DNA from: Paludisphaera rhizosphaerae
Lineage (GTDB): Bacteria; Planctomycetota; Planctomycetia; Isosphaerales; Isosphaeraceae
Direction of reading: 5' to 3'
Assembly: GCF_011065895.1 (NCBI RefSeq)
Contig: NZ_JAALCR010000044.1
Coordinates: 1 to 39,823 of the forward strand
Length of the DNA stretch: 39,823 nucleotides
The notes beneath the pieces are model-generated. The model searched no databases and was not told the DNA's origin. It was given only the letters and a program-made list of their open reading frames with translations. The translations under genes and the position numbers were made by a program. Shown here piece after piece: positions 2,827 to 8,699 of the stretch (positions within the stretch are counted from its first letter, which is position 1; each line of letters opens with the position of its first letter).

Positions 2827-4446
2827 CTACTCGGGGGTAGCCGCGATTGTAATGTGGCCCACCGAGACGGTCGGACCGGCACCCACCAGCGGGTCCGCCG
2901 CCATCCCGGCCCTCGCGTCGGATGGAACCAGCGTTATCGTGATGGAGTCCGCCGATGCGCCTAAGAGACCTAATTCCCGCAGGTTCTCTGTGAGGTCCAA
3001 GGTAATGCTGGCCCCTTGACCTGCTTTCATCCCGTCCCGGTGGCCCATGGCCGCCTGGCTCGCCGATTCGAAGAAGGTGATTAGGCCCACAAAGTAGGGG
3101 GTGTTCGGGTCGCCGGCCTGCGCGAGGTCGGGCAGATTGATGTAGACGGAGTAATACCGACTCGGCGGCGTATCGTATCGGACGTCGGTGAAGATGGCTC
3201 GCACGATCCTGTGGTCGGCATCGCCTAGTCCTTGGAAGCCTCCTAACGCGGCCGTCAGTCTTGGCTGCTGAGCCGGCTCGACGGCGAGCCGGACCGTCTG
3301 GGGGGAACTGCCCAAGGTCCGCGGCGTTCCGTCGGTGGCGATAACTTCCTCCATCATACCTGGCGGGAACGCCTTGATGACGTTCCGGCGCTGAGGCCCG
3401 GCCAAGGAAGGCGGGACGGCCTGGACACTGACGCCCTTGTCGTAGTAATACCCAAGCCGATCCAGGTCTAACACATTTGATGCGGATAGTTCAATCCGTC
3501 TTCCGCCCGGGTCGAAGAAGGTAAAGCGGGTCTCAAGCCAGAGGGGGTCATCCGGATTCCTCCGGCCTCTGCCGAGGCGGAGCCATTCGCCCCAGAGCCG
3601 GTCGACATTGGCGTGATGCAACCAGAAGATGGGATCTCGCCCGGCCGTATCAGGATTGCCCATCCAATGGCCGATCTCCGTATGCACCGCGTTATGGGCG
3701 CAGACTTCGAGGGCTCCGAAATTACGGTTGTGTTCCCGATGGCCGGGCTCTCTCTTGTAGGGGCCACCGAACCCCTCGCCGCCACAAGGCGATGCGAACG
3801 AGACAACGCGGAACGCATGTTCCCAGGCGACGGCGGTGGCAGCGATTGGCATTCCCTGCTTGATACAGCGGTTCTTCTCGAAGAGCGGACTATCCGAGTC
3901 GAAGAATCGATCCGGTAGGGCCCGCTGGGAGCGATCTGTCCAATCCCAATAGGGAAGTGTCAACTCGACGTCGCCCGAGGCGGCGCGGAGGATGCGCTCG
4001 AAGGCGAACAGATAGGCACGGTGCCAGGGCAGGAACCACCAATTGGCATGCTGGCAGCTTCCCCAGGCTTCCAGTATCGTTTCTTCCTCCTGGTCAAGGT
4101 AGCCGTGCATGTTGGCCTGGTACCACCAGGAAGTCGGGTCGTGCTTGGGCCGCGATTTCATAACCCGGACGCCACGCTCAAGCGAGTCCAATTCGCGGGA
4201 CGTCAGGCTTGAGAAGCTCTTGCGCATCCGAATCCTGCCGTCCGGGCCAGGGGATGGCTCGGGTGCGGGACTTGGGCCTGGAGGCGGGATCGGTTGGGGC
4301 GGAGGCCAGGGGCTGGGAGTAGGCGGCACGTAGGGTTGGGGACCGCAATCGCAGGGAGTTAGCTGGCCTCGACGGGCACATCCGCCTAACGCGGCGGAGA
4401 GGCCAACTGCCAAAACCTCGCGACGGGTCACGATTCGATGGGCCAT
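2827..4446 (-). CDS. Tyrosinase-family copper oxidase, exported lipoprotein-like
   Basis: The 539-residue protein is read from ATG 4446; GTG 4458 is an in-frame alternative and neither has a strong ribosome site. The N-terminus has a twin-arginine motif (TRREVLAVGL) followed by ALGGC, a lipobox, with Cys23 as probable lipid attachment. A Pro-rich linker (about 40-70) follows. The type-3 copper centre is complete: CuA His114, His133 and His142 (CQHANWWFLPWHRAYL) and CuB His251, His255 (HNAVH) and the HH pair at 277-278 (FWLHHANVDRLW). Cys131, two residues before His133, is placed like the Cys of the thioether bridge in fungal tyrosinases and catechol oxidases. A beta-rich C-terminal region follows. 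It should oxidise phenols to quinones outside the cytoplasm. Sampled third codon positions are less GC-rich (about 70%) than in the neighbours, hinting at separate origin. Confidence 0.88.
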   Translation of the reverse strand: MAHRIVTRREVLAVGLSAALGGCARRGQLTPCDCGPQPYVPPTPSPWPPPQPIPPPGPSPAPEPSPGPDGRIRMRKSFSSLTSRELDSLERGVRVMKSRPKHDPTSWWYQANMHGYLDQEEETILEAWGSCQHANWWFLPWHRAYLFAFERILRAASGDVELTLPYWDWTDRSQRALPDRFFDSDSPLFEKNRCIKQGMPIAATAVAWEHAFRVVSFASPCGGEGFGGPYKREPGHREHNRNFGALEVCAHNAVHTEIGHWMGNPDTAGRDPIFWLHHANVDRLWGEWLRLGRGRRNPDDPLWLETRFTFFDPGGRRIELSASNVLDLDRLGYYYDKGVSVQAVPPSLAGPQRRNVIKAFPPGMMEEVIATDGTPRTLGSSPQTVRLAVEPAQQPRLTAALGGFQGLGDADHRIVRAIFTDVRYDTPPSRYYSVYINLPDLAQAGDPNTPYFVGLITFFESASQAAMGHRDGMKAGQGASITLDLTENLRELGLLGASADSITITLVPSDARAGMAADPLVGAGPTVSVGHITIAATPE

Positions 4447-4854: not shown

Positions 4855-5823
4855 TTACACCGTACGGCCGTTCAACCACGCGAACGGGACGGAGGGCTGG
4901 TCGGCGGTTCGCGCACCGATCTCGTCTGCGAGGTTCTCGTAGCGTTCCGGCTGGCGGCAGAGGTAGTCCTGGGCCTTGGCGGCCTTGCCGGAGAAGGAGC
5001 GGTTTTCCAGTCCCCAGGTGGTGTTCAGGTGACGGATGATCGCGGCGTAGTCTCGGGACGTGTAAACGCCGGAGCGCTGGGCCGCCGCGGCGAAGTGATC
5101 GAAGAGGTTCGGCAGTTGACCGTCCGTCATCCGGCTCCCGGGCATGGCGATCAGCCGCCTGAGCACGGAGTGGTAGGCGAGGAGCGTCGCTTCGGGGTCG
5201 CGCTCGAAGAGTTCGGCGACGATTCGGGTGTAGAAAACCTCGTGGCGCGTCTCGTCCGCGGCGATCTTGCGGCAGATCTTGGCGAGGCCCTCCTCGCCGC
5301 ATTTGACCGCGATCCGGGCGACGTTCCCGTGTGAGAGCCGCGTCGCACGCTCCTGGAACGCGGAGTAGATCAGCCCGGCGTATTCGTGCCCTTCGTGCCC
5401 GGAGGTGAAGCCGTCACTGATGAGGTGGTGGATGGTCAGCTCGATCGACCTCATGTCGACGCGGCCCGAGAGCCGCAGGTAGGCATTGAGCAGGTCGCCG
5501 TGACGGTTCTCCTCGGCGGTCCAGCCTCGCAGCCAGCGCGCCCACGGAGCCTGCCCCCCTCCGGTCGGGTCCCTGGCGATCCGCTCGACCGAGATCGCGT
5601 AATTCGGCAGCGCCTCCTCGGTCACCATGTTTCCGACGAGTACGACGAGGAGTTCGTCAGGCAGGGCCCGAGCCGTTTCGCGGAAGCGATTCAGCCGATC
5701 CGCCCAGTCGTCCGCGTTGAGATCGGGCAGGAAATCGGTCGGTTGCCATGCTTCGTCGATCGGAAGAAGCAGCGACAACTGGTCGGAAACGAAGTCCTGG
5801 AGGCTTTCAATGACTTCTATCAC
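4855..5823 (-). CDS. Soluble acyl-ACP desaturase, plant stearoyl-ACP Delta9-desaturase type
   Basis: The 322-residue protein starts at GTG 5823 with no clear ribosome site; no better start keeps the conserved N-terminus. It aligns by eye over its whole length with the plant plastid enzyme: 'WQPTDFLPD', 'VVLVGNMVTEEALPNY', 'WTAEENRHGDLLNAYLRLSGRVDM', 'FQERATRLSHGN' and 'IAADETRHE'. The diiron ligands are all present: Glu69, Glu105, His108, Glu158, Glu191 and His194. The enzyme inserts a cis double bond into acyl chains held on acyl carrier protein, using O2 and reduced ferredoxin, so it should make unsaturated fatty acids for membrane lipids in the cytoplasm. No ferredoxin or reductase gene is adjacent. 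Double-bond position and chain-length preference cannot be read from the sequence. Confidence 0.92.
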   Translation of the reverse strand: MIEVIESLQDFVSDQLSLLLPIDEAWQPTDFLPDLNADDWADRLNRFRETARALPDELLVVLVGNMVTEEALPNYAISVERIARDPTGGGQAPWARWLRGWTAEENRHGDLLNAYLRLSGRVDMRSIELTIHHLISDGFTSGHEGHEYAGLIYSAFQERATRLSHGNVARIAVKCGEEGLAKICRKIAADETRHEVFYTRIVAELFERDPEATLLAYHSVLRRLIAMPGSRMTDGQLPNLFDHFAAAAQRSGVYTSRDYAAIIRHLNTTWGLENRSFSGKAAKAQDYLCRQPERYENLADEIGARTADQPSVPFAWLNGRTV

Positions 5824-6168
5824 CTGGGGCCAAGGTCTTCCTGCCGGGCCGGGCGGTTGAGGTGTTCAGAAGTTGGTTGCAAAGGGAGTTCGGAGGCGGA
5901 GACTGAGAGCGAACTGCCGCCGACGCTGAGCATCGTCGGCAGAGGGATCCGGCGGTTCTTCCGGCATCCTCTAGGTTTACGATCAACCCCGCCCGGGCGA
6001 ATCTCCCAACGCCTGAGCCGACCGCGATCGTGGTCGATGCGGTCGGGTCTCTCCTCTGGGAACGGCAGCCGCCCTGTGCCGAGTTTCCTCCTTGATCCGT
6101 CCTCTCCGGGACGGACACCTTTGATCCGCAGACCATATCGAAAACCCAGCTTTCAGACCAGCCGAGCG

Positions 6169-6273
6169 ATCGGGCGTGGTGCGGCCTCTGGAAGGCGCTC
6201 TCGATGTTTCGAGCCCAAAGTCGACTTCCGATCGTCGGGTTTCATGGCCAGGTCACCGGAGGAACCTCTCTTG
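6169..6273. repeat. Possible third, most diverged copy of the 318-base-period repeat
   Basis: The segment around 6221-6242 (CGACTTCCGATCG...GGGTTT) matches 6539-6560 at 16 of 22 positions without gaps, again at an offset of exactly 318 bases. A second shared word (CCGGAGGAACC versus CCGAGCGAACC) follows about 30 bases later, with one small gap. Outside these two words similarity needs several gaps, so this copy is tentative. Confidence 0.4.
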
Positions 6274-6486
6274 GCGTTGTCGTCGGAGGCTCCCGTTCTC
6301 TCCGCGGCCCGCAAAGTCGTGACATTCCGGACGGCCGACGTCGGCCTCCCTTTCCACGCCTGGACGGGAGTGGAAGCCCGTGATGGAGCCGGAGTCTTGG
6401 TAGTATCGTATCGAATTGGAGGGCTGGGCTCGGATCTCCGCGGAGAAGGGGATCGGCGCGACCGGCCCGCCAGGCGAAAGCGACCG

Positions 6487-6591
6487 AACGAAGCCATCGT
6501 GGAGGCCCCGATTTCGATGTCCAACCGTCTGCCATTAGACGACTTGCGGTCGATGGCTTTGGTCGTCGAGCCGTCCGAGCGAACCCAATCC
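6487..6591. repeat. Imperfect direct repeat, copy A (318-base offset to copy B)
   Basis: The words AACGAAGCC (6487), CTTGCG (6543), CGATG (6551), TTTG (6558) and CCAATCC (6585) recur exactly 318 bases downstream, at 6805, 6861, 6869, 6876 and 6903. CCGATTTCG (6508) recurs with an offset of 319. The last 21 bases match at 16 positions without gaps. Several long words sharing one offset over about 105 bases make chance unlikely, although overall identity is only about 60-65% once one or two small gaps are allowed. Confidence 0.6.
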
Positions 6592-6804
6592 CGCGGGGCC
6601 GTCGTTGGCATTGGGCGACCCCTGGAGCGGTTCCCGTTCGGATTGCATCCGGTGGTCGGTCTGCCGGTGCCAGGAGTCCAGGCTCTTGGATCGATTCGGT
6701 GCCGGCTGCCTTTCCCCGTTTCCTCCTCCGCTCCTGGTGCAACCCAACCGGCAGGCGTTCGATGGCTTCCGTCTGGAACCGTCGCGAGCGGCGAGAAATC
6801 GTCA

Positions 6805-6909
6805 AACGAAGCCGTCGCGATCCATGCCGATTTCGTTCTCAAAACCCCTTCCGCCAATAGCTTGCGTCCGATGAGTTTGCTCTCGGATCGTTGCGAAGGA
6901 AGCCAATCC
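6805..6909. repeat. Imperfect direct repeat, copy B, ending next to a gene start
   Basis: This is the downstream partner of the copy at 6487-6591. It ends 14 bases before the ATG at 6924, and weaker similarity (a G-run then CGTCG) runs on to about 6920. The repeat therefore covers the alternative upstream TTG start at 6891 of the membrane protein, which argues that the real start is the ATG at 6924. Confidence 0.6.
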
Positions 6910-6923
6910 GGGGGGCGTCGCGG

Positions 6924-8699
6924 ATGAGGAAGCCGCCCCGGGAATCCAAGGAGGGGACGCCGACGCATGAGCCGACACGCCGGGCGGAGCGGGCTGTCGC
7001 GGCGGCGGGGCCGTTCGCGCGGGTGAACGCCTGGTTGGCGCGGCCGGTCGGCCGGCTGGGGCTGTTGGTCCTCTGGGGGGCGATTCTCTGCGCGCCGGGG
7101 ATCCTGTTCTTCAACCCGTATGAACCATTCGCGGGGGGGCATATCACTCGCGACCCGTTGTGGATCCACCGGCTCTACAGCGACGACTTCATCTACGTGT
7201 CGGCCTCGCGGAACCTCTCGCGGACGATGGCGAATCTGTTCACACCGCATTTCACCCACGTCGTCCCGGCCTGGCGGCTCCTAACCTGGTTTCTGGTCGC
7301 TTCGGCCGGGAGCCTGGCGCGGCTGCCGGACGTGTTGGCGGTCGCATCGTACGGGATCCTGGCGGCGACAATGGTTCTCGTGGGCCGGCTGACGGCGCGA
7401 GAGACGGGGAACCAGGCCGTGGGAGCGGCGGCGGCGGTCGGGGTCGGCACGACCTCGCTGATGATCGCGCCGGGGACGTGGTATTCGGCCGGGCAACCGC
7501 TCTGGGCGGCGTTCGCGACCCTCGGGGCTCTCTGGTTCGCGCAGTCCTGGCGGCGGTCGCCGTCGTGGCTTGCGCTCGGGCTCTGCATGGCGTCGACAGC
7601 CTGCGCGGGATGGCTCTGGACGATCGGCCATCTGGCGGGTCCGACGACGGCAATCTATCTGTGGCTCGATGGTCGACGGTCGTGCCGCAAGGCGGCCCTG
7701 GCGCCGATCGCGGCGACGGCCCTCGCCGTGGGGCTCTCGGTCGTCCTGGGCGCGGGGAAAGTCGACAGCCGGACGAGCTTCCACGGTCGGACGACGGCCG
7801 AGGCCGTGAGACCCGTCGAGGGCGTCTTCCACACGATGCAGGCCATCCCCGAGAGCCTGGTCCTGGGGAACCTCGGCCTGGCCGCCGAGACGACCGCGGG
7901 GCAGGGGGCGTTGCTCACCCTCGGCCTGCTCGGCCTCTGGGCGATCCCCCGGTTCCGTCGCGGCGGACTCGGGGCGTTCAACCCGATCGAGATCGCCGGC
8001 GCGACGTTCCTGGCGGGGAGCTATCTCATGGAATGGACCGTCCGCGGCTATCTCGATTACAAGTACTTACGCACGTTTAACGTGGACATGATGGTGCCCT
8101 GGTACCACGTCGCGCCCCAGGTCGGGGCGGTCCTCCTCGTGGTCGGCTGGTGGATGGGGCCGAGGAAGTCGGATGCGGTCGAGTCCCAGCCGGCGTCGAT
8201 GCCGTTGAGCCGCAAGGCGGCGCTGGGGGTTCTGGCCTTCGCGGCGGTGCTGGCCGCCCTGAACCGGCCTCGGGTGGAGGACCTCTGGATCCACAGCGCC
8301 CCGGAGATGACGGCCTCGGAAGCCGCGCGCTTTCCGATCCCAGAACTGCAGCGGATGCGGGCCACCTCGCTGCTGCTGGACGAGGCCGCGAACCAGCGGA
8401 AGCATCTGCGGCGATATGACCTCGCGCAGAAAACGGCGGCTGGAATGGGGATCGGCCGCGACGCCATCCACGCCGCATTCGGCCGGATCGACGCTCCGCT
8501 GTTGCCCGACCGCTGCGACGGGGTCGACCTCCTGGACCTGCCCGAGCACGGTCAGCCGGCGGATCATGCTCGGGTCCGGCAGGCGCTCGGGCCGTACTTC
8601 ATTCTGGAGCCGCCGCCCCGGCCGGATTGGTACGCGGCCGGGGACGTCTGGCCGCCGCCGTCGTCGAAGCCGACGAGCGGGGCGGCCCACGCTCCTTGA
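6924..8699 (+). CDS. Polytopic membrane protein, possibly a GT-C-type glycosyltransferase
   Basis: The 591-residue protein starts at ATG 6924 behind a G-rich stretch; TTG 6891 is in frame but lies in repeat DNA. About ten to twelve hydrophobic segments follow a charged N-terminus (first at about residues 46-63). The first large external loop carries 'LYSDDFIYVSASRNLS', an Asp-Asp pair near residues 87-88 placed like the acidic catalytic motif of GT-C glycosyltransferases that use lipid-linked sugars. The C-terminal 120 residues are soluble. I do not recognise a named family, so the glycosyltransferase idea is inference from topology and the DD motif. It converges on dnaB, the two stop codons being 10 bases apart. 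Function may concern cell-surface glycan or protein glycosylation. Confidence 0.7.
   Translation: MRKPPRESKEGTPTHEPTRRAERAVAAAGPFARVNAWLARPVGRLGLLVLWGAILCAPGILFFNPYEPFAGGHITRDPLWIHRLYSDDFIYVSASRNLSRTMANLFTPHFTHVVPAWRLLTWFLVASAGSLARLPDVLAVASYGILAATMVLVGRLTARETGNQAVGAAAAVGVGTTSLMIAPGTWYSAGQPLWAAFATLGALWFAQSWRRSPSWLALGLCMASTACAGWLWTIGHLAGPTTAIYLWLDGRRSCRKAALAPIAATALAVGLSVVLGAGKVDSRTSFHGRTTAEAVRPVEGVFHTMQAIPESLVLGNLGLAAETTAGQGALLTLGLLGLWAIPRFRRGGLGAFNPIEIAGATFLAGSYLMEWTVRGYLDYKYLRTFNVDMMVPWYHVAPQVGAVLLVVGWWMGPRKSDAVESQPASMPLSRKAALGVLAFAAVLAALNRPRVEDLWIHSAPEMTASEAARFPIPELQRMRATSLLLDEAANQRKHLRRYDLAQKTAAGMGIGRDAIHAAFGRIDAPLLPDRCDGVDLLDLPEHGQPADHARVRQALGPYFILEPPPRPDWYAAGDVWPPPSSKPTSGAAHAP

Follow-up and report, generated by a model that had tools for sequence, protein, structure and literature searches.

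The window analysed here is a stretch of 39,823 nucleotides from Paludisphaera rhizosphaerae (contig NZ_JAALCR010000044.1 of assembly GCF_011065895.1). The part studied lies between a gene of the fatty acid desaturase family and a gene for which Pfam returned no family over 7023-8696 (Table 1). It contains two similar segments, W1 and W2, a promoter-like motif upstream of them, and between them a copy of another dispersed repeat, family B, whose core surrounds TTCCCCGTTTCCTCCTCCGCTCCTGG and which matches, wholly or partly, the loci L002, L004, L005, L006 and L008. The start of the right gene is uncertain. The codon-usage gene caller, which was trained on the window and 60 loci of the same genome, places it at 7023, while the preliminary description of this DNA had the last repeat copy ending just before an ATG; an in-frame ATG does lie there, 15 bases after W2.

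Table 1. Features in the part of the window under study
Feature	Position	Strand	Basis
Left gene, fatty acid desaturase family (PF03405)	4855-5823	-	Pfam E 9.9e-124
Long open frame over the region	5386-6927	+	513 aa; codon-usage score -42 beyond 5823
Long open frame over the region	6153-7259	-	368 aa; codon-usage score -40
Possible third unit (eroded, uncertain), 318 bp before W1 and in register with it	6167-6268	+	b1 6167, b2 6236, b3 6257
Promoter-like motif P, -10-like TATCGT at 6404-6409	6387-6410	+	EM motif score 8.05, just over cut-off 8
Unit W1, dispersed family A (profile positions 1-114)	6476-6590	+	nhmmer 67.2 bits, E 2.5e-19 over 62 sources; covariance model R1 73.1 bits in own genome
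W1 site b1, CGAnCGAASCCR forward	6485-6496	+	three-site scan, 11/11
W1 site b2, motif on reverse strand	6554-6565	-	three-site scan, 10/11
W1 site b3, forward	6576-6587	+	three-site scan, 11/11
Dispersed repeat of family B in the W1-W2 spacer (core 6713-6757)	6620-6766		own-genome blastn, best E 5.7e-9
Unit W2, family A	6796-6908	+	nhmmer 56.8 bits; covariance model R1 60.4 bits
W2 site b1	6803-6814	+	three-site scan, 10/11
W2 site b2	6872-6883	-	three-site scan, 8/11
W2 site b3	6894-6905	+	three-site scan, 10/11
Right gene	6924-8699	+	ORF; start uncertain, in-frame ATG 6924 or GTG 7023

The same description had proposed a diverged tandem repeat with an exact period of 318 bases. The words on which it relied, recurring between 6487-6591 and 6805-6909, are indeed present at that offset. 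When 5824-6967 is compared with itself without gaps, the highest score, 21 at 6543-6597, falls at offset 318, against a maximum of 15 in 60 dinucleotide shuffles. At this offset W1 and W2 are identical at 60 of 117 positions without gaps, their gapped score is 34 against at most 19 among 1000 shuffles, and a blastn self-comparison gives E 2e-10. Since the real scores exceed those of every shuffle in both control sets, the control that might have undone the proposal did not, and the similarity of W1 and W2 is real and homologous far beyond chance. The period itself is a different matter. Tandem Repeats Finder reported nothing for the region, and the DNA between the units is unrelated at offset 318: 6273-6475 and 6591-6793 share 54 of 203 positions, a level reached by 93 of 149 control offsets, whose mean is 28%. 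As the spacer is not repeated, a 318-bp tandem unit was rejected.

Judged by comparison with related genomes, W1 and W2 are two copies of a dispersed, non-coding, intergenic family of about 112 bp, here called family A, that belongs to one genus, apparently Paludisphaera. An iterated profile run over the window, 60 loci of its own genome (G000; 8.05 Mb in 110 contigs) and locus L003 reached 90 hits and 112 aligned columns. Genomes were then scored with two covariance models, the sequence-only R1, built from 19 copies, and R2, built from 105. As 150 (R1) or 82 (R2) candidates were scored per genome, all copy numbers are lower bounds. From the 150 candidates in G000, R1 gave at least 144 matches. 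Of these, 139 span most of the model, and among the five partial ones two overlap another match on the opposite strand. The option of a non-coding repeat family, which the preliminary description had left beside that of a gene, thus held up: the five congeners (G001 to G005) contain 50 to 129 R1 matches each, namely at least 60, 129, 50, 124 and 58 in that order. With R2, all 82 scored candidates matched in G000, G002 and G004, and 68, 47 and 33 of 82 in G001, G003 and G005. Outside the genus, 1-5 weak matches occurred in 4 of 15 genomes with R1 and in 10 of 39 genomes of the family with R2.

A stringent pattern run over the GTDB species genomes, a scan that may leave out the window's own or near records, retrieved 49 stretches with 61 pattern matches, all from Paludisphaera soli JC670 (Isosphaeraceae, Planctomycetota). 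Searches of a plasmid collection gave no match; one unit of G002 lies on a contig of 97,874 bp that is possibly a plasmid (L172, G002:C2). A phylum-wide 12-mer search matched 46 of 119 genomes against 23 of 119 with the reversed control, which is too weak to indicate spread beyond the family. A literature search that reached few subscription papers yielded no report of such an element, and the available text of a comparative genomics study of Isosphaeraceae (PMC5352709) contains none of the words 'intergenic', 'noncoding' and 'non-coding', the repeats shown there being CRISPRs.

Copies of family A stand singly or in same-strand groups. All 28 non-overlapping neighbour pairs within 600 bp in G000 are on the same strand, as are 18 of 26 adjacent pairs in P. 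soli, the other eight involving partial reverse hits on the palindrome formed by b2 and b3. Start-to-start distances of the G000 pairs range from 131 to 510 bp, with 8 of 28 between 225 and 230 and 318 seen twice; same-strand distances in P. soli run from 158 to 432 and include 319 and 320. The exact 318 bp at the window's locus is one value among variable unit spacings and no repeat period.

A further segment had been said to match at this offset, and 6221-6242 does agree with 6539-6560 at 16 of 22 positions; in nearly the same range of starts, a comparable 22-mer occurs at 1 of 499 other offsets. The match falls within the possible third unit, which would be eroded and stands exactly in register, 318 bp ahead of W1. 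This candidate has a three-site score of 22/33, ranking 286 of 79,400 positions, and 48 of 116 positions identical at offset 318, equalled by 1 of 149 control offsets. The family A profile missed it; its gapped scores with W1 and W2 were reached by 10 and 401 of 500 shuffles, and it keeps 17 of 39 conserved columns, a value reached at 550 positions of the window. These comparisons are suggestive of a third unit and go no further.

Each unit contains three copies of the 12-bp motif CGAnCGAASCCR, b1, b2 and b3, in forward, reverse and forward orientation at fixed spacing. Over 146 hits, the mean number of matches to the 11 specified positions was 10.7, 9.0 and 10.3, respectively, against a background of 3.6, and the three sites are about equally tolerant at motif positions 4, 9 and 12. 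Between b1 and b2, AA and TT steps separated by 21 bp flank a centre symmetrically, each at a distance of about one helical turn, and P. soli has further T and A preferences symmetric about the same centre. Within the unit, palindromy is confined to b2-b3, no conserved outer ends were found, and inspection by eye showed no terminal inverted repeat. An extra CGAASCC follows b3 at exactly 10 bp, one helical turn, in 27 of 82 G000 copies (at 9 bp in 2 and at 11 bp in 6), and is present in 1 of 56 G002 and 2 of 69 P. soli copies.

Outside these blocks, most positions are weakly conserved in the 90-copy profile, and the interior is close to random. The P. soli copies were fetched by an exact pattern, so that conservation at the pattern positions is built in; our argument for selection uses columns outside the pattern (AA, TT, AAT). 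Columns A17, T18, A42, A43, T63 and T64 keep one base in 64-68 of 69 P. soli copies, while the most similar of the 2346 pairs among them reaches 81% identity, most of the differences falling in the interior. Conserved sites around a free interior point to old copies under selection at the sites that have not recently moved, and recent transposition was rejected on the divergence of that best pair.

The motif may be older than the layout in which three copies are combined. Loci from two further genera of the family carry a 14-bp form of it, CGAACGAASCCAAT, with at most two mismatches, in arrays that keep to one strand but are spaced differently: L266 (1425-1607) has five copies 42-43 bp apart and L268 (1113-1678) eight copies at irregular spacing. 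In 55.9 kb of background loci, there were 3 hits, all in L192, which holds the window.

The units also have a characteristic placement. Of 88 G000 copies, 85 overlap no called gene. The non-coding stretch is longer to the left of the cluster than to the right in 124 of 138 clusters (52 of 56 in G000, 36 of 40 in G002, 36 of 42 in P. soli), a count that omits clusters without a called gene on both sides (5 of 61 in G000, 7 of 49 in P. soli). If the right gene points at the unit, the median distance to its stop is 27 bp in 55 loci of G000 and G002 and 20.5 bp in 24 loci of P. soli; if it points away, the corresponding medians are 145 bp in 44 loci and 136.5 bp in 18. The neighbours themselves are diverse. 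In a Pfam survey of G000 loci, covering 53 of 59 right and 53 of 58 left proteins, no family had more than two members, and enrichment of particular neighbouring genes was rejected on this basis.

On the left side, many loci carry upstream signals on the strand of their units. Motif P, aatcggCgaTcngGnccCAtnnTc, includes a -10-like YATnnT. With cut-offs chosen by eye, P scored above 8 in 50 of 101 upstream regions of G000 and G002, its training set, and in 43 of these it lies 78-120 bp ahead of the first unit. The reverse-complement, downstream and shuffled controls each gave 0 of 101; about half of the loci thus have no P above 8. In P. soli, which was held out, 21 of 49 regions passed the same threshold, 13 of them with P at 78-120 bp, compared with 0 of 49 for the reverse complement and 5 of 980 after shuffling. 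P in the window lies 89 bp before W1 and is followed within 10 bases by GGAGGG; the window belonged to the training set.

After P, a boxA-like sequence, CTCTTTGACAAT, was found with at most three mismatches at 18 of 101 loci (16 of 61 in G000, 2 of 40 in G002), against 1 of 101 in each of three controls, and at 13 of the 18 it lies 58-67 bp before the unit. The signal in P. soli is weak (6 of 49 sense, 2 of 49 reverse, 0 of 49 shuffled). The D profile, which contains this boxA, hits the boxA of the rRNA (rrn) leader and spacer of G001-G003 with E 1e-4 to 5e-2, so that an rrn-like boxA is present in a minority of loci; the window's locus is not among them (best 6 mismatches). The family A profile found nothing significant in rrn loci. 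In L204 and L207, near 1121-1139 and 3421-3444, boxA is seen both in the leader of 16S and downstream of it, in the 16S-23S spacer. The G000 draft yielded no 16S rRNA gene, although three congeners have 3-4 each. Other repeats separate the D module from the unit in L124, L108 and L117. A small membrane-protein frame upstream of D in a few loci was rejected, as by eye it was not conserved in 20 of 24 D hits. Short tandem repeats whose translation repeats words such as VIGVSSVFCLLRS lie in L149, within the 300 bp that precede its D module at 2380.

We tentatively propose that family A is a protein-binding element with several sites under selection, which closes off a short non-coding transcription unit and serves as a roadblock or insulator before the neighbouring gene. 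A sequence-specific DNA-binding protein would occupy b1, b2 and b3 as a nucleoprotein complex. Transcription from P would produce a short non-coding transcription unit whose end is marked by the three-site complex, and the complex would stand as a roadblock or insulator between this upstream transcription and the neighbouring gene. Selection would keep the sites while the interior drifts. The dispersal of the units, the motif on both strands, its fixed spacing and the free interior argue for this protein-barrier reading, as do the helical phasing in G000, the left-right polarity, the upstream P and boxA, and the motif arrays in other genera. Several observations count against it. About one locus in two lacks a P above 8, few G002 loci have a boxA, the extra phased site is frequent in G000 alone, and the window's locus is not conserved among relatives (see below). 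In addition, insulation alone would not require an upstream promoter.

The main rival, which we consider doubtful, is that the copies are multi-copy non-coding RNA genes. P would then be the promoter, a single or tandem unit the body of an RNA of about 170-180 nt, its scaffold conserved and its interior variable, and boxA would protect the untranslated transcript from Rho at some loci. P and boxA, upstream and on the same strand, fit such genes equally well, and the unit length is nearly fixed. Pairing was tested in 69 P. soli copies and 145 copies from G000 and G002; excluding 6 and 1 partial reverse palindrome hits, respectively, left the outcome unchanged. In the 145 copies, b2-b3 pairing slightly exceeds expectation (0.744 against 0.727; reached by 2 of 1000 shuffles), which favours an RNA and weighs against the protein-barrier reading, while b1-b2 pairing equals expectation (277 of 1000 shuffles reach the observed value). 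The other tests speak against RNA genes. All six units folded were no more stable than their shuffles (z from -0.92 to 0.68), RNAalifold on 19 copies gave no consensus pair, and Rfam gave two matches far below the gathering score, so that identity with an Rfam family was rejected. The b2-b3 stem of P. soli is nearly fixed except for its central S-S pair, and at this variable position there is no compensation (36 of 68 pairable, p 0.45; for b1-b2, p 0.81). Moreover, b2 is the reverse complement of the motif with the same degeneracy, which a single-stranded reader could not see. A required RNA stem b2-b3 or b1-b2 was rejected; apart from the small b2-b3 excess, the units show no conserved secondary structure with compensatory changes. 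The lack of compensation, the weak pairing and the helical phasing favour a DNA-binding protein as the reader of the units, which may nonetheless have a role as RNA.

It is quite improbable that family A consists of non-autonomous mobile elements, MITE- or REP-like, that spread within the genus, even though the high copy number and dispersal, and the copy on the possible plasmid contig of G002, would suit such elements. No recent copies were seen in P. soli, where even the best pair differs mostly in the interior; the outer ends are not conserved, the flanking genes are diverse, and no transposase was found among the 25 families listed (of 102 and 76) for the 53 right and 53 left proteins. Synteny gave a mixed picture. 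When 61 G000 loci were compared with 40 loci from G002, a genome with at least 129 units, five pairs had an orthologous right gene and matched in the side and strand of the unit (L092-L189, L112-L175, L117-L161, L127-L186 and L116-L190), which counts against mobility. Their motif positions persist in flanks that are otherwise largely unalignable and too diverged to be checked for target-site duplications. By inspection, the remaining pairs that share a gene do not have the unit next to the orthologue on the matching side. The window's locus is not conserved, as mobility would allow: in G001, G002 and G004 the orthologues of the two flanking genes are at separate places, and the stretches fetched around them hold no significant unit. 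Some positions thus are old and others turn over.

Palindromic repeat families neighbour the units in the same non-coding islands, which would also suit mobile elements. A second dispersed family with a strong palindrome of the CATGGCCACGCAAGCGTGGCCATGGCACCC type occurs in both orientations in L092, L100, L114, L124, L108 and L143, lying between the D module and the unit in L124, and another repeat group, partly self-complementary, is common to the islands of L102, L116, L105, L133, L114 and L143.

Finally, a remnant of a protein gene with 106-residue repeats, suggested earlier because 318 is divisible by three and because related peptide words lie on the minus strand, is contradicted by the results and vanishingly improbable: the words exist, within one open frame of 368 aa, but W1-W2 mismatches are even over the codon phases (17, 16 and 15 of 35 each), gaps in the alignment break the reading frame, both long open frames score negatively for codon usage against +55 to +156 for three called genes, nearly all G000 copies are free of called genes, and unit spacings vary. 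The W1/W2 region thus has no open frame with codon-type conservation of the kind expected of a tandem protein-repeat gene. Long intergenic stretches in Paludisphaera can be mosaics of repeat families rather than remnants of genes.

High-copy intergenic elements that are under selection beside unrelated genes usually indicate a genome-wide DNA- or RNA-binding system. More than 100 short non-coding transcription units, driven by promoters, led in part by boxA and each closed by a fixed three-site nucleoprotein barrier set against the next gene, might make up a genome-wide boundary or chromosome-organising system with its own putative reader protein, although we think this extension of the protein-barrier reading rather unlikely. 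We know of no bacterium with such a system, and nucleoid organisation and transcription in Planctomycetota are, to our knowledge, poorly known. Taken together, the conserved blocks, free interior, polarity and upstream signal lead to a clear prediction: one protein binds the three sites, and transcription stops there.

Several known systems resemble family A in part. REP, BIME and REPIN sequences, which are associated with RAYT, are likewise short, high-copy, intergenic and often grouped. In the available text of PMC3733652, REPs are small (20-40 bp) palindromic repeats; the family A unit, unlike these, is about 112 bp long, only partly palindromic and made of three motif copies at fixed spacing, and it shows neither the 20-40 bp imperfect palindrome nor the alternating orientation of REP and BIME, the close pairs in G000 all being on one strand. 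MITE-type repeats are similar in size, copy number and intergenic site. Correia (CREE) and ERIC elements are about 100-150 bp long, have many copies, lie between genes and may carry promoters, and their copies are alike throughout, with inverted ends. Family A, in contrast, conserves short blocks only, and neither whole-length similarity nor terminal inverted repeats were found in it.

BoxA-led untranslated transcripts, such as those of rRNA operons and CRISPR arrays, resemble the family A leaders that carry a sequence matching the rrn boxA of the genus, but most family A loci, including the window's, have none with at most three mismatches. Phage Mu ends, iteron arrays and resolvase sites usually occur at one or a few places with the protein gene nearby, whereas family A has more than 100 dispersed copies beside diverse genes. 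What family A has in common with them is its architecture: several copies of one short site, present on either strand and held at fixed orientation and spacing, as in multi-site DNA-binding elements.
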